Source: a bacterium (GTDB taxonomy: Bacteria > Myxococcota_A > UBA9042). Taken from it: a DNA stretch of 49,088 bases. Below, piece after piece: positions 35,285 through 48,636 of the stretch. The DNA is taken from positions 1 to 49,088 of the forward strand of contig JAUIAC010000013.1 in the NCBI GenBank assembly GCA_030425545.1, written 5' to 3'. The position numbers and the translations under genes are program-made. The notes beneath the pieces are model-generated. The model had not been told where the DNA came from and did no database searches. It was given only the letters and a program-made list of their open reading frames with translations. The stretch's first letter is position 1. Each line of letters opens with the position of its first letter.

Positions 35285-38200
35285 ATGCACGTGCTGACGC
35301 TATCCATCTCAGGTTCCCGTGGCGGCTGCGTCCGTCTGCCCTGCGCCAGCGGCGCGCCCGAGCCCGCTGCGCACGCTCAGCGCGGCGCGAACGCACGTCG
35401 CGTCGCGCGGCGGCTGACGCTGCTGCTCGCGCTCGTCGTCGCCGCGGCGGCCTGCGACGACACGCAACCCGACACATCCAACGCCGACACCTCGACCGCC
35501 GACGCCTCGAACCCCGACACGCTGGGCGTCGACACGCAGACCGACGCCGGCGCGCAAGCCGACACCACCGGGCCAGACACCGGGCCAGCCGACGTCAGCG
35601 GCGACGACTGCAGCAAGCCCTCCGACTGCAAGGGCGCGCTGAAGACGTGCCAGCAGTGGACCTGCAACCTCGGCGCCTGTGTCGCCGTGGGCGCCCCCGA
35701 CGGGGCCATCTGCCAGGACGGAGACGCCTGCAACCCGGGCCTGTGCAACACCGGCGTGTGCAAGTCCAAGCCCGTGAGCTGTCCCACCGCCAGCGCCCCC
35801 TGCCGGGTCAACGCGTGCCACCCGGCCACCGGCAAGTGCAGCGAGACGGACGCGGCCGACGGCGCGGCCTGCGACGACGGCCAGGCCTGCTCGCAAGACG
35901 ACACCTGCCTGGCCGGGGTGTGCCAGGCCGGCAAGGGCGCCTGCGAGTGCAAGAGCGACGCCGACTGTCCGGACGACAAGGACCTGTGCAACGGCGTGCC
36001 CTACTGCGACACCCAGGCCGGCAAGTGCGCCACCAACGCGGCGACCACGGTGACCTGCCCCACCGGCAAGGACACCGCGTGCGCCAAGAACACCTGCACG
36101 CCGGCCACGGGGGCGTGCGCCATGGCGCCGCAGCCGGACAAGACGCCCTGCGACGACGGCGATGTGTGTACGTCGGGTGACGCGTGCGCCAAGGGCGCGT
36201 GCGTCGCGGGCGAAGACACCTGCGGCTGCAAGAAGGACGCGGACTGCACCGACGACGGCGACGCCTGCAACGGCACGCCCTTCTGCAACCTGGCGTCGGG
36301 CAAGTGCCAGAACAACCCGGCGACCGTGGTGGTGTGCCCCTCAGCCGCCGACACGGCGTGCGTCGCCAACCTCTGTGAGCCGAAGACGGGCGCCTGCAGC
36401 CTGACGCCGACCAACGACGGCAAGGCCTGCGACGACGACAACCCCTGCACCCCCGACGAGACCTGCAGCAAGGGCGTGTGCGACAGCAAGACCAACAAGT
36501 GCGCCTGCGCGGTGGACGCCGACTGCGCCAAGCAAGACGACGGCGACCTCTGCAACGGCACGCTCTACTGCGACCAGGTGACCAAGAACTGCAAGCCCAA
36601 CCCCGCCACCAAGGTGACCTGCCAGACCGTCGACAACACCGCCTGCAGCGTGGCCAAGTGCGCGCCGAAGACCGGCCAGTGCTCGCTTCAGCCGTTGAAA
36701 GACACCACCCCCTGTGACGACGGCAACGCCTGCACCACCGGCGACGCCTGCGCCAAGGGCGTGTGTACGCCAGCCGCCACCGCGCCAGAGTGCGTGTGCA
36801 CGGCCGACGCCGACTGCGCCAAGTTCGAAGACGGCGACCTCTGCAACGGCACGCTGGTGTGCGACAAGGCCAAGAAGCAGTGCATCGTCGACCCCAAGAC
36901 CACCGTGTTCTGCCCGAGCGGCAACAACACCCAGTGCGCCCACAACGTCTGCGATGCGAAGACCGGCAAGTGCGCCATGACGCCCGCCAACGTCAACAGC
37001 GCCTGCGACGACAAGCAGCCCTGCACCGTGGTCGACCGCTGCGGCGCCGACGGCACCTGCAAGCCGGGCAACGACGTGTGCGAGTGCGGCCCCCACAAGC
37101 CCAAGGTCGACTGCGACGCGACCAAGGGCGACGGCGACGTGTGCAACGGCACGCTGTGGTGCGACACCACGGCCCTGCCCTTCAAGTGCGCGCCGAAACC
37201 CAAGAGCGCGGTGACCTGCAAGACGGTGGACGACACCTTCTGCCAGGCGAACACCTGCGACAAGAAGACCGGCGTCTGCAGCCTGCAGCCGGTGGCCGCC
37301 AACGTGGCCAAGCCCTGCGACGACGCCAACCCGTGCTCGGTGGCGACCGTGTGCCAGGGCGGCGTGTGCAAGGGCGGCACCAGCAAGGACTGCGACGACA
37401 AGAACCCCTGCACGCAGGACGCCTGCGCCAAGGCCTCGGACTGCACCCACGCGCCGCTCACCGGCGCCGCCTGCGACGACGGCAAGCCGTGCACCGGGCC
37501 CGACAGCTGCAACAAGGGCGTGTGCGGCGGCAACCCCAAGAGCTGCGACGACAACAACCCCTGCACCATCGACGCGTGCGACGACACCCAGCCGGGCGGC
37601 TGCATGCACCCCCCCACCACGGCGCCGTGCAGCGACGGCGACGCCTGCACGAGCGGCGACAGCTGCAAGGCCGGCAAGTGCGTCGGCGGCGCCGCCAAGA
37701 GCTGTGACGACGGCAACAGCTGCACCGCCGACACGTGCGACACCAAGACCGCCGCGTGCAGCAACAAGGGCAGCTCGGGCGGCAGCTGCAGCCTGATCGG
37801 CAGCGTGGCGGGCACGTGCGACGTGGGCGTGTGCAAGGCCAAGGCGCCCTGCGACCTCGTCACCCGCGAGCTGCCCTACGGCGGCGCCGCAAACTCGGCC
37901 TCCGAGCACGTGGTGTCGTTGGCGGCGGGGGGCCACGCCGTGGCGGGGCGGGAGCGGAGCCAGGGCGGCAAGTGGGTCCCCTTGGTGGCGCGTCTCGACG
38001 ACAACGGCGCGCCGCTGTGGACGTGGCGCGAGACGGGCGCGCAGAACGACGAGGCCGTGGCGCACGCCGTGCTCGACGTCGGTGACGGCGGCCCGCTGGA
38101 CGACGGGACCTCGAGTGTCCTGGCCGTTGGGGTGAGCAACCTGGCCAACACGCCGCTCGGCGCGGTGTGGCGGCTGAGCGCGGCCGGGAAGCTGATCGAC

Positions 38201-41200
38201 AAGACCACCTTCGGCGGGGCGGGGGCCGACCGGCTGCGCGACGTGCGGCGCTTCGGCGACGGCCTGGTGCTCACCGGCGACACGTCGACCCAGAGCAACG
38301 GCAAGACCGACTGCTGGGTGCTGCGGACCACCGGCGCCAAGCCCAAGGTGGTGTGGGACGTGCGCTTTGGCGGCAGCGGCGCCGAGTCGTGCTACGCGGT
38401 GCGCACCCAGGGCACGAGCGTGCTCGCGGTGGGCGCCACGGAGGGGGTCGGCACGTCGACGGACGCGTACGCCGTGCTGGTCGACAGCGCCGGCAAGCTG
38501 CAGTGGAAGAAGGCCTACGGAGGCAAGGGCACGCAGCGCTTCTACGCCGCGGCGGCCTTGGGCGACGGCCGCTGGCTCGCGGGCGGCACCAGCAAGGACG
38601 GCACCGAGGCCGGCTACCTGACCCGGCTCAGCGCCTCGGGCGCGCAGGAGGCCACCGTCTACCCCAAGGAGCTGCGCGAGTTCTCGGGGCTGCACGTGCA
38701 CGCCAACGGCAGCGTGTCAGCGCTGGGCCAGACCGTGCCGCTGATCACCGGCGGCAGCTTCGACCTGACGGTCCGCGCCACGGTGCTGGCGCGGCTGTCG
38801 TCCAGCCTGAAGGTGACGTGGAGCCAGGGCTTGCCGGCGACCGCGGCGGTCGATGTGCACGCCAAGCTGCAGCTCGACGGAGACCGCCTGCTCTTCGCGG
38901 GCTCGCGCCACACCGACATCGAGAGCGACGGCAAGAAGGAGCTCCAGGCGTTGGCCCTGGCCACCGACGCCTGGGGCCACGCCACGTGCGCGTCGGCTGG
39001 GCTGTGCGCGCACCCGGCCTACCGCTTCTGCGACGACGGAGAGCCCTGCACCACCGACACCTGCGTGCCGGCCAGCGGCTGCAAGCACGCGCCGGTGGCC
39101 GGCTGCGCGACGGCGGCGGCGAGCCTCGACCTCGACCATGACGGCCTCGCCGGCAGCGCGGACCCCTGCCCCAGCGTGTGGAACCCCGACGGCGACAAGA
39201 CAGCCTGCGCGCCGGCCGGCACGCTGCTGAACGGCGCCGTGAACGTCACCCTGAGCGAGCCGGGCGCCGCGCCGGGCTACAGCGGCCGGCGGCGCACCAA
39301 CGAGGTCGTCGAGGTCGCCCTCGCCAACGGCCTCGCCCACGACAGCGCGCTGGAGGCCTGGTGGCGCTTCGACGGCAACACCCTCGACTCCAGCGGCAAG
39401 AAGCGCCACCTCGACAAGGCGGGGGGCACCTACGCGCCGAGCGGTCTGTCGTCGCAGAGCCACGCCTTCCGCGTGCGTGGGCCCAAGAACTCGACGAGCG
39501 GCTTCGACGACCTGGTCACGACCGACCTCACGGTGGCGCTGTGGGCGCGGGCGGTCCGCGACGACGACGGCGCGAGCTGCACGTTCGTGCAGGCCTCCGG
39601 CGCGGCCGCGGCGCTCAAGACCGAGGGGCACCTGCAGCTCAAGGTCGACGACGACGGCGCGCTGCGCATGAGCTACGGCACCCACGACGGCAGCTTCGCC
39701 GGGCCCGGGGTGGCCGGGCTGCGCAGCGAAGACGCGCAGGTGACTCAGCTCGACCAGTGGCACCACTACGCCCTGGTCTCGCGCATGGGCCAGCCGGTGG
39801 TGGCCTACGTGGACGGGGTGTCGGTGCCGCTGAAGTCCGACGGAGGCGACCCGCTGAGCGCCGACTTCCCGGTCGGGCTGGAGTACTTCAAGGTCGGCGA
39901 CGACAGCGGCGGCACCGGCGACTGCGCGGTGACGGTGGACGACCTGCTGCTCTTTTCGCGGCCCCTCAGCGAGCCCGAGATTCAGGCGCTGGCGCAGTCG
40001 CGCGCGCCCTATCGCACCCTGCTCAAGGCGCCCAAGTCGCCGACCTTTGGCGGCCTCAAGATGACGGAGCGCACCCCCTGGGACAGCGCCCCCCACCTGA
40101 CCCACAGCGAGGTGGTGGGCAAGCGCCCGCTGGGCCCCGACGACCTGACCGACGCCCTGGGCTACTGGCGCTTCGACGGCAAGCCCACCAACGAGATCCA
40201 AGGCAAGAGCGACGCCAAGCCGGTGGCGGTGGACTGGGTCGACGGCGGCTTCGCGGTCGCCGACAAGGCCGCGCGCTTCAACGGCAAGACGAGCTACATG
40301 ACCGTCACGCAGGCGGAGTCGACCGTGACCGACTTCACCGTGGAGGCGTGGTTTCGGGTCGAGGCCCCCAGCCCCCCGCGCATGTACCTGGTGGACACCC
40401 GGGCGACGCAGTCGTCGGCCAAGTCAGGCGTCGCCCTGCTGCTGGACACCCAGCCCGGGACGCGCAACTACCGCCTCGGCCACATGGTGTCCCACGGCGG
40501 CACCAACTATCAGGGCTACTACACCACGACGCTGGACACGGGCTGGCACCACACCGCGCTGCGCCGGCAGTCGGGCAAGCTGACCATGTTCCTCGACGGC
40601 GTCGCGCTCAACGCGACCTGGGCCAAGGGCGACACGGTGACGTCGGCGCTCAAGCTCTTCGGCAGCAAGCCCGCCCGCTTCGGCTACTACGGGGCCGGCA
40701 CGCTAGGGGCCGACTTCAAGACCTACGGCTTGTTCGGCGCGCTGGACGAGGTCGCGATCCACGCCACGGCCGTGAGCGACGACGCCCTGGCCCGACGCGT
40801 GGCGGGGCCGCCGCGGATCCGCTTTCTGGCGAGCACGGGCGCCAGCGTGGCCAGCGAGGGCTACCTCTACCACCAGTACGCGCTGGTGGAGGACGGCGCC
40901 AAGCACACCCCGCCGACGCTGCTGGCCCTCGACAAGAAGACGACGTGCAGCGGCCTGCTCTCGCCCTGCTTCGGGATCGTCGGGTGGTGGCGCTTCGACG
41001 GCTTTGGCGCGCTGGCGCTGGACGCCACCACGGGGCGTCGCGTCGGCACCCTCAAGGCGGGCGCCGTGCAGACCGGCGCGGCGGCCCTCTTCCCGACCGC
41101 AGAGGCGCACGTGGACCTGGGCTTGTGGAAGGCGCCCTTCATCGGCGGCGACTTCACCGTCGAGTGGCTCGGCGCGCTGACGAGCACCTCGGCCAACGCG

Positions 41201-41572
41201 GCGGCGGTCCTGCTCCGTCGCGAAGGCCACGCCCCGGGCCTGCGCATCCAGAGCGGCAAGTTCGCGCTGGACGCGGCCCCGAACGCGACGGTGTCCGGCG
41301 GCGCACCCAAAGCCCGCGTGTCGCAGGCGCTCGCGGCGGTCTACGACGCCTCGGCCAAGCTGGCGCGACTGCTGCTCGACGGCGCCAAGGTCGGTGAGTC
41401 GACGGTGACGCCCGCAGGCAACACGCTCCCGCTTCGCCTGCTGCTCGGCAAGGGCGCGGGCACCGCGGGCCACATCGGCCGCGCGTCGAGCCTGCGCATC
41501 TTCTCGCGGCCGCTGGCGACCGACGAGCTCCACCACCACCCCGCGACGACCTGGGCGCCGGCGAAGAAGTAG
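35285..41572 (+). CDS. Giant Cys-repeat and LamG-domain surface lipoprotein
   Basis: This frame of 2095 residues has a long basic n-region and a lipobox AAAC near residue 57, followed by a Thr/Asp-rich linker. Residues of about 100-850 are Cys-rich. Five tandem units of about 95 residues start near 35941, 36223, 36502, 36790 and 37079. Each has CxCxxDADC, CNGT(L/P)xC, a TACxxxxC stretch and CDDGxxCTxxDxCxxG. Shorter CDDxNPCT half-units follow. A Gly-rich region (nt 37900-38980; GGAGADRLRDVRRFGDGLVL-like phrases) resembles a propeller. DLDHDGLAGSADPCPS is a TSP3-like calcium motif. Three LamG domains follow (about nt 39340-40000, 40130-40790, 40975-41550), each opening with WWRFDG or YWRFDG. 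The domains suggest adhesion or glycan binding at the surface. The ATG at 35285 follows a run of Gs. Confidence 0.87.
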   Translation: MHVLTLSISGSRGGCVRLPCASGAPEPAAHAQRGANARRVARRLTLLLALVVAAAACDDTQPDTSNADTSTADASNPDTLGVDTQTDAGAQADTTGPDTGPADVSGDDCSKPSDCKGALKTCQQWTCNLGACVAVGAPDGAICQDGDACNPGLCNTGVCKSKPVSCPTASAPCRVNACHPATGKCSETDAADGAACDDGQACSQDDTCLAGVCQAGKGACECKSDADCPDDKDLCNGVPYCDTQAGKCATNAATTVTCPTGKDTACAKNTCTPATGACAMAPQPDKTPCDDGDVCTSGDACAKGACVAGEDTCGCKKDADCTDDGDACNGTPFCNLASGKCQNNPATVVVCPSAADTACVANLCEPKTGACSLTPTNDGKACDDDNPCTPDETCSKGVCDSKTNKCACAVDADCAKQDDGDLCNGTLYCDQVTKNCKPNPATKVTCQTVDNTACSVAKCAPKTGQCSLQPLKDTTPCDDGNACTTGDACAKGVCTPAATAPECVCTADADCAKFEDGDLCNGTLVCDKAKKQCIVDPKTTVFCPSGNNTQCAHNVCDAKTGKCAMTPANVNSACDDKQPCTVVDRCGADGTCKPGNDVCECGPHKPKVDCDATKGDGDVCNGTLWCDTTALPFKCAPKPKSAVTCKTVDDTFCQANTCDKKTGVCSLQPVAANVAKPCDDANPCSVATVCQGGVCKGGTSKDCDDKNPCTQDACAKASDCTHAPLTGAACDDGKPCTGPDSCNKGVCGGNPKSCDDNNPCTIDACDDTQPGGCMHPPTTAPCSDGDACTSGDSCKAGKCVGGAAKSCDDGNSCTADTCDTKTAACSNKGSSGGSCSLIGSVAGTCDVGVCKAKAPCDLVTRELPYGGAANSASEHVVSLAAGGHAVAGRERSQGGKWVPLVARLDDNGAPLWTWRETGAQNDEAVAHAVLDVGDGGPLDDGTSSVLAVGVSNLANTPLGAVWRLSAAGKLIDKTTFGGAGADRLRDVRRFGDGLVLTGDTSTQSNGKTDCWVLRTTGAKPKVVWDVRFGGSGAESCYAVRTQGTSVLAVGATEGVGTSTDAYAVLVDSAGKLQWKKAYGGKGTQRFYAAAALGDGRWLAGGTSKDGTEAGYLTRLSASGAQEATVYPKELREFSGLHVHANGSVSALGQTVPLITGGSFDLTVRATVLARLSSSLKVTWSQGLPATAAVDVHAKLQLDGDRLLFAGSRHTDIESDGKKELQALALATDAWGHATCASAGLCAHPAYRFCDDGEPCTTDTCVPASGCKHAPVAGCATAAASLDLDHDGLAGSADPCPSVWNPDGDKTACAPAGTLLNGAVNVTLSEPGAAPGYSGRRRTNEVVEVALANGLAHDSALEAWWRFDGNTLDSSGKKRHLDKAGGTYAPSGLSSQSHAFRVRGPKNSTSGFDDLVTTDLTVALWARAVRDDDGASCTFVQASGAAAALKTEGHLQLKVDDDGALRMSYGTHDGSFAGPGVAGLRSEDAQVTQLDQWHHYALVSRMGQPVVAYVDGVSVPLKSDGGDPLSADFPVGLEYFKVGDDSGGTGDCAVTVDDLLLFSRPLSEPEIQALAQSRAPYRTLLKAPKSPTFGGLKMTERTPWDSAPHLTHSEVVGKRPLGPDDLTDALGYWRFDGKPTNEIQGKSDAKPVAVDWVDGGFAVADKAARFNGKTSYMTVTQAESTVTDFTVEAWFRVEAPSPPRMYLVDTRATQSSAKSGVALLLDTQPGTRNYRLGHMVSHGGTNYQGYYTTTLDTGWHHTALRRQSGKLTMFLDGVALNATWAKGDTVTSALKLFGSKPARFGYYGAGTLGADFKTYGLFGALDEVAIHATAVSDDALARRVAGPPRIRFLASTGASVASEGYLYHQYALVEDGAKHTPPTLLALDKKTTCSGLLSPCFGIVGWWRFDGFGALALDATTGRRVGTLKAGAVQTGAAALFPTAEAHVDLGLWKAPFIGGDFTVEWLGALTSTSANAAAVLLRREGHAPGLRIQSGKFALDAAPNATVSGGAPKARVSQALAAVYDASAKLARLLLDGAKVGESTVTPAGNTLPLRLLLGKGAGTAGHIGRASSLRIFSRPLATDELHHHPATTWAPAKK

Positions 41573-45189: not shown

Positions 45190-45420
45190 ATGCCAAAGCA
45201 CCCTGAATTCGACGCGCTGACGCACGAGGCGTCGGACGCACCAGAACGTGACACACCCACCGACGAGCCAACGCCCGACGTGGTGCGCAAGCCCTACGCG
45301 AAGCCGAGCTTCGTGGTGGCGTCGTTCCGGCGCTTCTTCATGGTGTGCTCGAACAACAGCAACAGCTGCGCCGGCGGCCCCTTCGTCAAGCCGCCGAACA
45401 ACGCCAAGGCCTGCTCATGA
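45190..45420 (+). CDS. RiPP precursor peptide
   Basis: This 76-residue peptide has the layout of a ribosomal natural-product precursor. It has an acidic Asp/Glu/Pro-rich N-terminus (about 1-32) and then KPYAKPSF (34-41). This is the YxxP motif that RRE (B1/PqqD-like) proteins bind in lasso-peptide and related leaders. A basic/aromatic stretch (ASFRRFFMV) follows, then a Cys/Asn/Pro-rich C-terminus with Cys at 53, 60 and 75 (CSNNSNSCAGG, then PFVKPPNNAKACS). The C-terminal part is probably the core. GGAG lies about 8 bases before the ATG. The stop overlaps the B2 gene (ATGA), so precursor and protease are coupled. The core has neither Gly1 nor Asp/Glu in lasso position. The cleavage site is unknown, perhaps between residues 42 and 53. 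Confidence 0.85.
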   Translation: MPKHPEFDALTHEASDAPERDTPTDEPTPDVVRKPYAKPSFVVASFRRFFMVCSNNSNSCAGGPFVKPPNNAKACS

Positions 45421-45725
45421 GCGACGCGCACGCTGCACGCGCGCCTCAGCTCGGCGCGATCCCGCGGCGCGCCTGGGTGCGGCTCCCGCCCCGCGTCAGC
45501 GCGGCGATCGGACGGCGGGTCGCGCAGGCCCGCCACCGCGCGCTGCCGAACCAGACGTGCATGGACCACGCCGCGTTCCTCGCCCGCTGGTACGCCGCCA
45601 CGGGCGTCGCCGCCACGACCTACTACGGCGTCCGCGCGGAGGACGGCGGGGTGAAGGGCCACTGCTGGACCGCCCCCTCGGACGCGCCGGTCCCGACCAC
45701 GTGGACCGTGATCCACGCCGAGTGA
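45417..45725 (+). CDS. Lasso-B2-like (transglutaminase-fold) leader peptidase
   Basis: This 102-residue protein resembles the lasso-peptide B2 family (transglutaminase-like Cys protease). The catalytic Cys is C48 in NQTCMDHAAFLARWYAATG, where B2 proteins have CLxRSLALxxLLRRRG. A GVR strand follows, and the His is H82 in VKGHCWT, the counterpart of AHAWV. The third acidic residue cannot be fixed by eye. B2 enzymes cut off the leader after the B1/RRE protein has bound it. It is small but close to the usual B2 length. The start overlaps the precursor stop. An extra Cys next to H82 (GHC) replaces the usual Ala and is unusual. Confidence 0.78.
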   Translation: MSDAHAARAPQLGAIPRRAWVRLPPRVSAAIGRRVAQARHRALPNQTCMDHAAFLARWYAATGVAATTYYGVRAEDGGVKGHCWTAPSDAPVPTTWTVIHAE

Positions 45726-45776
45726 CCCGCGCCCCGGCGCCCCCTCGTTCCTCCCCCCGCCCCTGGAGGTCTACCG

Positions 45777-46073
45777 ATGTCTGAGTCCACCCCGCTGGCC
45801 CCGACGGCCGTGCTCACGGTCAACCGCGCGCTGCCACAGCGAGAGCTCATGGGGCAGCACATCTTTGTCAATCCGCGGCGGCGCGAGACGGTGACCCTCG
45901 ACGAGCTGGCCACGTGGCTGGTGACCCAGGTCGACGGCGCCACCCCCTTGATCACCATCGCCGAGCGCTGCGCGGCCCAGTTCGACGTCAGCGCCAAGCA
46001 AGCCCTTGGGGACACGCGAGATCTCTTCGAGGGCCTGATGCTGGTGGGCCTGCTCAAGCCGGTGGGACCGTGA
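45777..46073 (+). CDS. PqqD-like RiPP recognition element (RRE) protein
   Basis: This 98-residue protein fits the PqqD/lasso-B1 fold. A beta-hairpin start (QHIFVNPRRRETVTLDELATWL) precedes three helices that include DGATPLITIAERCAAQF, VSAKQALGDTRDLFEGLMLVGLL. In PqqD proteins the DGxxxxxxI and DxxxFxxxLxxxGLL pattern is characteristic and is seen here. The protein should bind the YxxP leader of the precursor at 45190 and present it to the enzymes. GGAGG lies about 8 bases before the ATG. A GTG start of the next gene overlaps its stop (GTGA), so it is translationally coupled to the kinase-like gene. Confidence 0.85.
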   Translation: MSESTPLAPTAVLTVNRALPQRELMGQHIFVNPRRRETVTLDELATWLVTQVDGATPLITIAERCAAQFDVSAKQALGDTRDLFEGLMLVGLLKPVGP

Positions 46074-46741
46074 CGTGGAGCGCCGCCAACCCCGCGGCGT
46101 CGCTCGCGGCTGACTCGCCCTTCGAGGTCGCCCCGAGCACCGCGCGGCTGCAGGTGCGCTGGCACGACGACGGCTGCGAGGCCCACACCCAAGGCGTCCC
46201 GGCCTTCTCGTGGCGCCTCGGCCAGCCGCCAGAGCTCTCGCCGGAGGCCTACGCGTCCCAGGCCTGGCGCGACTACACGCGCTACCTGATGCACCGCACC
46301 AGCCTGGAGTTCACCGGCGGCGGCACCCTCCACGCCTCCGCTGGCCGCGTCGGCTCCCGCTCTCTGGTGTTCTGCGGCGCCAGCGGCGCAGGCAAGTCCA
46401 CGCTCTACGGTCACTTCAGCCCCGAAGACCGGATCCTGGACGAGATCTGCGATCTGCGCCTGAGCGAGAGTCGCGCCCGCTTCGCCCTCTACCCCGACGC
46501 GCCGCCGGTGGCCGCTGTGTGCCTGCCCGTGCACAGCGACCACTTCGAGCTGGTGCCGGTGCCGCCGGTACGCGCGCTGCACACCATGCTGCCCGAGGTC
46601 TACCCCGGCCTCTGGTTTGGGCACCGCCCCGAAGCGGTCGTCGACTTTCTCTCCTCGCTGCTCGAGACGGTGCCCGTGTTCGAGCTGCACACCCCCAAGG
46701 ACCCTCACGTGGTCCAGTTCCTCCGGGAGTTTTGGTCATGA
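46070..46741 (+). CDS. HPr-kinase-like protein of a RiPP cluster
   Basis: This 223-residue protein has a P-loop GASGAGKST at 103-111, directly after the strand SRSLVFCG, as in HPr kinase/phosphorylase-fold proteins. Acidic residues (DRILDEICDLRL) follow about 10 residues later. The N-terminal 100 residues have a beta-rich region and RYLMHRTSLEF. Relatives encoded in lasso-peptide clusters phosphorylate the precursor's C-terminal Ser. Here the precursor ends in Ser (AKACS), which would fit, but this is an inference. The start is a GTG overlapping the PqqD-like stop, and the stop overlaps the radical SAM start (ATGA). Confidence 0.82.
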   Translation: MTWSAANPAASLAADSPFEVAPSTARLQVRWHDDGCEAHTQGVPAFSWRLGQPPELSPEAYASQAWRDYTRYLMHRTSLEFTGGGTLHASAGRVGSRSLVFCGASGAGKSTLYGHFSPEDRILDEICDLRLSESRARFALYPDAPPVAAVCLPVHSDHFELVPVPPVRALHTMLPEVYPGLWFGHRPEAVVDFLSSLLETVPVFELHTPKDPHVVQFLREFWS

Positions 46742-47781
46742 TCCCACAGAGCCTCTCCGACAAGATTGACGCCGGCCGTGTGCCTGTGTCGATGCAGCTC
46801 GAGATCACGCGGCGGTGCAACTGGCGCTGCGTCCACTGCTACGCCATCCCCAAAGACGAAGGCGTGGAGAGCGAGCTGTCGACGCAGCAGATCTACGATC
46901 TGCTCGACGAGGCCTGGGACCTCGGGACCTTCATGCTCTCCATCACCGGTGGCGAAGCGACCCTGCGGCCCGACTTCGTCGACATCGTGCGCTACGCCTG
47001 CGAGCGGGGCTTCGCGGTGACCATCTTCACCAACGCGTCGCTCATCGACGACGCCATGGCCCGGACCCTGGTGGAGCTGGGGGTCGTCGAGTTTCAGGTC
47101 TCGGTGCTGGGCGCCAGCCCGGAGGTCCACGAGCGCATGGCGCAGCGGCGCGGGAGCCACGCGGCGGTGTGGGCCGGCGTCCGTGCGCTGGTGAAGGCGG
47201 GGGGCAACGTGCTGCTCAAGTCGTCCGCCATGCGGGACAACGCCCACGAGATCGCGGAGATCCACGCCCAGGCCGACCAGCTCGGCGTGGGGCACATGAC
47301 GACCCCCGTGTTGCTGCCTCGCTGGCCCGGCGATCCCGAGATCGACGGCATGCGGCTCAAGGGCGAGGCGCGCAAGGAGATCATCGACCTGCAGGCGGGC
47401 TGGCAGATGGCGCTCCACGCGTCCGAGGACGAGCACCCACGCAGTGAGCACGAGATTTCTGGGGCCAGCAGCCCCGGGTGCCGCTCGGGCACCAGCACCA
47501 TGTCCATCGGGGGCAACGGCAAGGTCTACCCCTGCAACACGCACCCGGCCGACGTCGGTGACACGCGCGAGCGTTCGCTGAAAGAGATCTGGGCCGACTT
47601 CTCGGGCTTCTCGCAGGTGATGGAGACCGACGACGCGGCCATGGAGCCGGGCGCCATCGCCGACGACGCGTTCACGTGTCCGATGGTGACCTACTCCGCC
47701 CGCAAAGAGGCCCGCTCGCCCGCGAGTCAGCGCGTGGCCATGGGCAAGCTCTCGCTGGGCGCGCGGCTGATCCGAGGCTGA
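46738..47781 (+). CDS. Radical SAM enzyme, PqqE/SPASM-like, of a RiPP cluster
   Basis: This 347-residue enzyme has the [4Fe-4S] motif CxxxCxxC at C27, C31 and C34 (CNWRCVHC), then the SAM-binding TGGEATLRPD. The architecture is that of peptide-modifying rSAMs such as PqqE, AlbA-type and MftC-like enzymes. Three Cys appear in the C-terminal part (SPGCRSG, VYPCNTHP and FTCPMV). This is fewer than a full SPASM domain with seven or eight, so it may hold only one auxiliary cluster. It probably makes a C-S, C-C or C-O link or epimer in the Cys/Asn-rich core. It is the last gene of the cluster, with no transporter after it. The start overlaps the kinase-like gene. Confidence 0.9.
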   Translation: MIPQSLSDKIDAGRVPVSMQLEITRRCNWRCVHCYAIPKDEGVESELSTQQIYDLLDEAWDLGTFMLSITGGEATLRPDFVDIVRYACERGFAVTIFTNASLIDDAMARTLVELGVVEFQVSVLGASPEVHERMAQRRGSHAAVWAGVRALVKAGGNVLLKSSAMRDNAHEIAEIHAQADQLGVGHMTTPVLLPRWPGDPEIDGMRLKGEARKEIIDLQAGWQMALHASEDEHPRSEHEISGASSPGCRSGTSTMSIGGNGKVYPCNTHPADVGDTRERSLKEIWADFSGFSQVMETDDAAMEPGAIADDAFTCPMVTYSARKEARSPASQRVAMGKLSLGARLIRG

Positions 47782-47829: not shown

Positions 47830-48636
47830 CTACTGCTTCTTGCAGGTCCCGTCGACCTCGTCGGTGGCGCCGACACAGGCCAGGCCGGCGGCGCACAGGG
47901 CTTGCGTCTTGTCGCACTCGGCGCCCTCCGGCAGCCCGGTGCAGGCGAAGGCCTCGCCCGACTTGGTGCACGCCCCGCCCAGCTCCTTGCAGTCGATGAG
48001 GTAGGGCTGCGTCCCCGCGCAGTCGAGCACCAGCTTGCCGTCCTTGCAGGTGCCGGCGTCCGAGTCGGCGCAGGTGCCGACCTTCTCCTGGCAGGTCACG
48101 CCCTTGCTGTGGATCACGCAGCCGGGCGCCTCGCCGCCGCAGAAGGACCACTCCACGTCGCCGTCGTCGGACTCGTAGAGGCACTCTTCCCCGGCCTTCA
48201 TGGCGCAGTCGGCGCCCCAGTCGGGCGCGATGACGGCGCACGTGGCAGCGCCGACGTCCTTGAACTGCGCAGCGCAGTCGTAGGTGGCGTCTTTGCCTTC
48301 CTCGCACATCAGCACCTTGTCGCCCTCGCACTTGCCCTCTTCCGGGTAGGTGCAGGTGGCCGCCCCCCCAGCGTCGGCGGCCGTGCCTGCGTCGGCTGCG
48401 CCGCCTGCGTCGCTGCCGGCCGCGTCGGTGCCTGCCGCGTCGGCGCTGCCTGCGTCCGCGCCGCCTGCGCCGGCGTCGGCGAGGCCGGCGTCGGCGGCCC
48501 CCGCGGTGTCGGCAGCCCCGCCAGCCGCGGTGTCCGTGGCGGTCCCGGTGCCCGCAGCCGAGCTGCCGCACCCGGCCGCTGTCAGCGACCCGAGGGCGAT
48601 GATGAAGGCCAGGCTCGAAGGACGGACGATGGACAT
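47830..48636 (-). CDS. Cys-rich lipoprotein of unknown function
   Basis: This 268-residue exported lipoprotein has lipobox TAAGC near residue 23. An unusually long linker of about 60 residues follows, made almost only of Ala, Gly, Asp, Ser and Thr (for example ADAGSADAAGTDAAGSD). The C-terminal domain holds many Cys in CxxGKCEGDKVLMC-like and CKDGKLVLDCAGTQ-like pairs and is probably disulfide-stabilised on the surface. GGAG precedes the ATG at 48636. It converges on the radical SAM gene with 48 bp between, so it probably does not belong to the RiPP cluster. No family recognised. Confidence 0.85.
   Translation of the reverse strand: MSIVRPSSLAFIIALGSLTAAGCGSSAAGTGTATDTAAGGAADTAGAADAGLADAGAGGADAGSADAAGTDAAGSDAGGAADAGTAADAGGAATCTYPEEGKCEGDKVLMCEEGKDATYDCAAQFKDVGAATCAVIAPDWGADCAMKAGEECLYESDDGDVEWSFCGGEAPGCVIHSKGVTCQEKVGTCADSDAGTCKDGKLVLDCAGTQPYLIDCKELGGACTKSGEAFACTGLPEGAECDKTQALCAAGLACVGATDEVDGTCKKQ

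Follow-up and report, generated by a model that had tools for sequence, protein, structure and literature searches.

A radical SAM, HprK-like kinase and PqqD operon with a lasso-B2-like peptidase gene, a predicted variant of a recurrent RiPP module

Gene content and catalytic motifs of the operon

What kind of peptide would be made by an operon in which a lasso-type leader peptidase (B2), a RiPP recognition element (RRE) and an HprK-like kinase are joined by a radical SAM (rSAM) enzyme and not by a lasso cyclase? The question is raised by five intact open reading frames on the + strand, which span positions 45190-47781 of the window (the whole 49,088-nucleotide stretch of DNA analyzed). All five genes proposed by the sequence-only reading were recovered by ORF and domain analysis: a precursor peptide gene (45190..45420, 76 aa) with the leader motif R-K-P-Y36-A-K-P39, a gene for a predicted transglutaminase-like leader peptidase resembling lasso B2 (45417..45725, 102 aa), a PqqD-like RRE gene (45777..46073, 98 aa), a gene for an HprK-like P-loop kinase with a GTG start (46070..46741, 223 aa), and an rSAM maturase gene (46738..47781, 347 aa). 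The reading had also described the whole set as packed with ATGA/GTGA overlaps, which was correct for three of the four junctions (ATGA, GTGA and ATGA), whereas the B2 and PqqD genes are separated by 51 bp, and GGAGG precedes the PqqD ATG. The GC content at third codon positions was 0.86-0.95 across all five frames and 0.94 in the adjacent LeuRS gene, which shows that the frames are coding and did not arise by chance in GC-rich DNA. Since both flanking genes, LeuRS upstream and a lipoprotein-like gene downstream, lie on the - strand, the five genes form a self-contained unit; neither a lasso cyclase nor a transporter was found within it, and no export gene linked to it was seen. The GC content of the cluster is in line with that of its surroundings and thus gives no sign of recent transfer. 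The downstream gene (47830-48636, - strand), convergent with the rSAM gene, encodes an Ala/Gly/Asp-rich N-terminus followed by a Cys-rich domain, and a 2095-aa secreted-type ORF at 35285-41572, rich in CxDGxxC repeats and containing LamG-like segments, possibly encodes a large surface protein.

The B2 protein matched Transglut_core3 at E=1.5e-8. Its match to lasso_biosyn_B2 (E=1.1e-5), at 25.9 bits, did not reach the 33-bit cut-off of NCBI; against Pfam PF13471 it scored 35 bits, above the cut-off of 26. The PqqD domain was recognized at E=2.5e-8, and its relatives in the PDB include PqqD (3g2b) and the lasso protein TfuB1 (6jx3). The rSAM enzyme contains Radical_SAM (6e-28) and SPASM (3e-7) domains, with the CxxxCxxC motif at 27/31/34; its SPASM part is reduced and has only the cysteines C248, C266 and C314. 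By the SPASM ligand scheme, we take these three to be the ligands of auxiliary cluster I, with cluster II lost, and the enzyme probably holds one auxiliary FeS cluster. Its closest solved relatives include the thioether-forming SkfB, PqqE and the CteB-type structure 5wgg.

The kinase carries the three elements of HprK-like RiPP kinases, namely a histidine (H88), a P-loop of the form GxxGxGK[ST] (GASGAGKS, 103-110) and an acidic pair (D124-E125). By itself it gave no significant HprK match; a profile of 35 relatives, from which it and its closest counterpart (L001, see below) had been left out, retrieved it at E=2e-20. H88, S105, G108, K109 and T111 were invariant in 37 kinases, and the acidic pair was widely kept. 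Its profile matches in the PDB include PEPCK and HprK, and among the top PDB matches of its AlphaFold model were many ATP-PEPCK structures (HprK/PEPCK fold), at E>0.05; the models of the kinase and the rSAM enzyme, built from two-sequence alignments, were poor (pLDDT 47-48). The motif together with the acidic pair that follows it matches that of BsfK (H148-G163-G166-G168-K169-S170-D186-D187, partly validated by mutation), which together with B1 has been proven to phosphorylate a peptide Ser (PMC10368454). By analogy, the window protein is a probable peptide kinase.

A second five-gene copy and the wider module

The sequence-only reading had called for a search for clusters with the same five genes, and one was found when about 85,000 genomes were scanned with the rSAM. 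This copy, L001, comes from another phylum, in a Lentisphaeria MAG, and has the five genes in identical order; its contig is 5.7 kb long and could be misbinned. Identities with the window are 24% for the precursor, 36% for B2 (in which C48 and H82 are common to both), 27% for PqqD, 35% for the kinase and 38% for the rSAM enzyme; the L001 B2 gives a weak Pfam match (E=0.0032). The two precursors have in common PYxxP, FxRFFxxC, three Cys and a penultimate Cys, so the predicted leader motif and the Cys-bearing core were indeed kept. Intact genes maintained at 24-38% identity speak for a functional unit rather than a decaying one. The contig, which stops 21 bp beyond its rSAM gene, holds no cyclase either. 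The notion of a RiPP locus without a cyclase, in which rSAM chemistry is predicted and the kinase probably acts on a peptide, is thereby strengthened by a conserved unit. In a tree, the window and L001 formed a fully supported pair; in the clade beside it, those precursors that were found end in Ser. A third five-gene cassette did not emerge from 388 genomes of the phylum of L001 and 379 of the window's own: the precursor profile gave chance-like or distant matches only, and the rSAM profile, which was also run on 48 genomes from the order of L001, nothing nearer than E about 1e-54. A plasmid collection contained only rSAMs of ≤31% identity. With the precursor alone as a query against 4,098 small ORFs, phmmer returned a locus of the host's phylum, L095 (E=1.2e-5), and L001 (E=1.8e-4).

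When the same 388 and 379 genomes were searched with rSAM profiles of the window and L001, 25 further loci were obtained, all of them distant (E 1e-46 to 1e-54). Though chosen by rSAM alone, these had an HprK-like kinase in 22 cases and PqqD in 18, on the same strand and within 3.5 kb, and at 10 of the 25, mostly directly before the kinase, a small ORF combines [Y/W]xxP with Cys in its core. The linkage of rSAM and kinase is specific, since none of the six other rSAM genes of the window's own genome has an HprK-like kinase within 1.5 kb. That genome has a second rSAM/kinase module on another contig (L005/L089), without a second B2. Hence, judged by gene content and motifs, rSAM, HprK and PqqD with PYxxP/Cys precursors are a recurrent module present in at least two phyla, and the window, where all four parts are linked, is a variant of this widespread and scarcely described peptide system, distantly related to the SynChlorMet families of NCBI. 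Two ideas of the sequence-only reading find no support in view of this recurrence: that lasso clusters were the source of the kinase and the RRE, and that the cyclase has been replaced by the rSAM enzyme. Unlinked homologues, which that reading had regarded as contrary evidence, were seen among distant relatives only, as at L095:3962-5056, where the 10 kb retrieved contain a window-like precursor and a kinase but no rSAM.

What distinguishes the window, according to these comparisons, is the B2 peptidase and an rSAM enzyme without the cysteines of auxiliary cluster II. Most relatives keep the SPASM pattern CGAG...PC...CxxC...CxxC, the CxxC...CxxC part of which is missing from the window and L001. 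An S24/S26-like peptidase accompanies 21 of 38 relatives, and L092, missed by the motif filter, is a 22nd (some of the 38 were found via the kinase and so are not independent for that gene). No such peptidase was found in the window or on the short contig of L001, and the B2 gene is confined to these two within the set studied. The simplest reading of this distribution is that the leader peptidase varies by subtype, S24/S26-like in most and lasso-type B2 here; the B2 would then be the sole lasso-like newcomer in the module, sitting where relatives have the S24/S26 peptidase.

Other members of the set show further arrangements. L066, L068, L073, L072 and L065, all from the phylum of L001, mostly have the order PqqD-rSAM-precursor-kinase and cores with L-x-x-GCK and a Gly-Ser end, which makes them a coherent family of their own. 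The 5 kb retrieved for L097 (genome G089) contain a tandem pair of HprK-like kinases and a PqqD, and no rSAM.

The predicted core and the nature of the product

Lasso leaders bear Tyr(-17) and Pro(-14) (PMC10368454), and the core starts were set by applying this spacing to the precursors of the window and L001. In both, the distance from the leader Pro to Cys1 is 14, so that a conserved Cys falls at +1 and cleavage in the window would occur at V52/C53, ahead of this Cys. The window thus has the leader spacing of lasso precursors along with an RRE; position -2 is Met in the window and Leu in L001 instead of the lasso Thr(-2), and a hydrophobic Ile/Val(-2) has been described from Bradymonadales, Acidobacteriaceae and Sphingomonadales (PMC10368454). 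The predicted cores, CSNNSNSCAGGPFVKPPNNAKACS from Cys53 of the window (24 aa; calculated M of the unmodified peptide, 2366.02) and CGTGSVQGCTGQGMIHNHGHQCI in L001, are 23-24 aa long and share Cys1, Cys8/9, a penultimate Cys and Ser5. Neither contains Asp or Glu, and hence none at core position 7-9. Across the set, 22 precursors have Y/W-x-x-P in common, and nearly all have a core Cys. FxRFFxxC of the window and L001 aligns with AFERQxLxC of relatives, which gives it the look of a leader or junction motif, and FxRFF precedes the predicted cleavage site. Ten of the 22 precursors, including that of the window, end in Ser, a feature that follows clades with three changes on the kinase tree. L001 ends in Ile, and phosphorylation of a C-terminal Ser was therefore rejected as a rule for the five-gene subtype.

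Read in this way, the likely product is an rSAM-crosslinked, possibly Ser-phosphorylated Cys peptide. That the locus is a RiPP operon of the rSAM/HprK-kinase/PqqD type, making a crosslinked, possibly Ser/Thr-phosphorylated Cys peptide released by B2, is the reading we favor and consider moderately probable. From the observed gene content, conservation, catalytic motifs and leader spacing, we infer an order of steps, a crosslink type and sites of modification and cleavage as follows: (i) PqqD would bind the PYxxP leader and present the peptide to the enzymes; (ii) the rSAM enzyme would crosslink the core by radical chemistry, most likely through a thioether that involves one of the three Cys, a type favored by the Cys residues common to the cores and by the presence of SkfB/CteB-type enzymes among the closest solved relatives; (iii) the HprK-like kinase would place a phosphate on a core Ser or Thr, the candidates being Ser5 (both copies) or the C-terminal Ser24 (window); and (iv) B2, guided by PqqD, would cut 13 residues past the leader Pro and release a 24-aa peptide with an N-terminal Cys. 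BsfK, for comparison, phosphorylates core Ser3, aided by its RRE (PMC10368454), and the target of other lasso kinases is a C-terminal Ser.

An ordinary product of the sactipeptide or ranthipeptide type, in which the rSAM enzyme would form Cys thioethers only and the kinase-like protein would be an ATPase or helper, agrees with the Cys-rich cores, with SkfB, CteB-like enzymes and PqqE among the closest solved structures, and with the lasso-like discrete RREs that RRE-Finder (PMC7470986) reports to co-occur with rSAM and to cluster with sacti- and ranthipeptides. However, the rSAMs of that type are SPASM enzymes with two auxiliary clusters, and the cluster II cysteines are absent from the window and L001. 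A helper role is also hard to reconcile with the invariance of the catalytic His and P-loop residues, with the proven activity of the homologous BsfK, and with the Ser ends of almost half of the precursors, the very site used by other lasso kinases; overall, we regard it as unlikely. The chances are rather low, too, that the rSAM enzyme makes a C-C crosslink (for instance in the FxRFF stretch) or another non-thioether change, leaving the Cys to form disulfides: C-C bonds are made by PqqE-type enzymes and FxRFF is identical in both five-gene precursors, but this stretch has the appearance of a leader motif upstream of the predicted cut.

A lasso cluster without its cyclase, or with a cyclase acting in trans and the rSAM as a neighbor or tailoring enzyme, would account for the split B1/B2, the HprK-like kinase and the Y(-17)xxP(-14) leader, which match the bsf phospho-lasso cluster (PMC10368454), and for a core of lasso-like size that begins with Cys. 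Yet without Asp or Glu in either predicted core no isopeptide ring can form, and L001 keeps the five-gene unit but has no cyclase gene. The Asn_synthase (PF00733) proteins of the window's own genome are on other contigs, and at least two of them begin with MCGI, as ordinary asparagine synthetases do; the only PF13471 match reported in this genome at E≤0.01 is the B2 of the window. A lasso peptide was thus rejected as very improbable, and the claim of a non-lasso core is now firmer than when it was first made. Maturation of a PQQ- or mycofactocin-like cofactor from a disposable scaffold peptide, suggested by PqqD and the PqqE/MftC-like rSAM, was rejected as scarcely credible because scores fall far under the PqqE, PqqD and MftC cut-offs, the core has neither Glu-Tyr nor a C-terminal Val-Tyr, and these pathways have no kinase.

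Relation to known systems and to neighboring surface proteins

The bsf cluster of Bradymonas sediminis (PMC10368454) resembles the window in its discrete RRE, B2 and HprK-like kinase (H...GxxGxGKS...acidic pair), in the Tyr(-17)/Pro(-14) leader with a hydrophobic residue at -2, and in an adjoining FG-GAP protein such as stands beside several relatives of the window locus. It differs in having a cyclase, a transporter, a nucleotidyltransferase and a Gly1/Asp8 core, whereas in the window an rSAM is present, a cyclase is missing, and the core carries three Cys but no acidic residue. SynChlorMet, defined in NCBIfam by the kinase-like ScmC and the rSAMs ScmE and ScmF, also joins rSAM to an HprK-like protein, and distant matches were obtained to ScmC for 32 of 37 family kinases and to ScmE for 27 of 31 rSAMs. 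The window rSAM scored 77.8 bits against ScmE and 69 against ScmF, with a cut-off of 400 each; its kinase did not match ScmC, and neither kinase nor PqqD matched any other Scm family. With scores below the Scm cut-offs and one rSAM gene plus B2 in place of two named rSAM families, membership was rejected. No literature on SynChlorMet was found. About 300 lasso-type discrete RREs that co-occur with rSAM, likewise split and without a lasso cyclase, have been reported by RRE-Finder (PMC7470986), though only in aggregate and with neither a kinase nor a B2 protein named by those words. Finally, SkfB, CteB and PqqE-type enzymes share the rSAM core, the C-terminal SPASM/Twitch part and the guidance by an RRE, whereas the window enzyme keeps just the three SPASM cysteines and has lost CxxC...CxxC.

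What is already known are therefore the pieces, namely RREs beside rSAMs (PMC7470986), the SynChlorMet families, and kinase, B1 and B2 in the bsf lasso cluster; a description of kinase, B2, RRE and rSAM together was not found in the literature searched, and a system of exactly this type has no characterized product or enzyme. A new RiPP class is possible, with a moderate chance, and the crosslink chemistry is not readable from sequence. One tentative form of such a class would be a 23-24-aa Cys1 peptide in which an rSAM-made C-S ring replaces the lasso isopeptide, with a phosphorylated ring Ser and release by RRE and B2. The ring-sized Cys1-Cys8/9 spacing, the penultimate Cys and the single-auxiliary-cluster rSAM would fit this mosaic of lasso and radical pathways, which we hold to be doubtful as a whole, and a ring of lasso-like size could be built on Cys. 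The operon would tie lasso-type leader processing (RRE and B2) to rSAM chemistry and peptide phosphorylation in five genes, a set small enough for whole expression. It also exposes a recurrent, largely undescribed module of rSAM, HprK kinase, PqqD, S24/S26-like peptidase and PYxxP/Cys precursor, whose leader peptidase differs among members, and makes it testable whether HprK-like RiPP kinases are older than lasso pathways or spread independently of them.

Giant secreted repeat proteins, judged by eye as FG-GAP, DUF11-like or Ig-like, adjoin many kinase-rSAM clusters, among them L005/L089, L014, L016, L024, L066, L072, L081, L082 and L087. The bsf lasso cluster, too, has an FG-GAP protein at its border (PMC10368454), and the peptides may act together with a surface protein.
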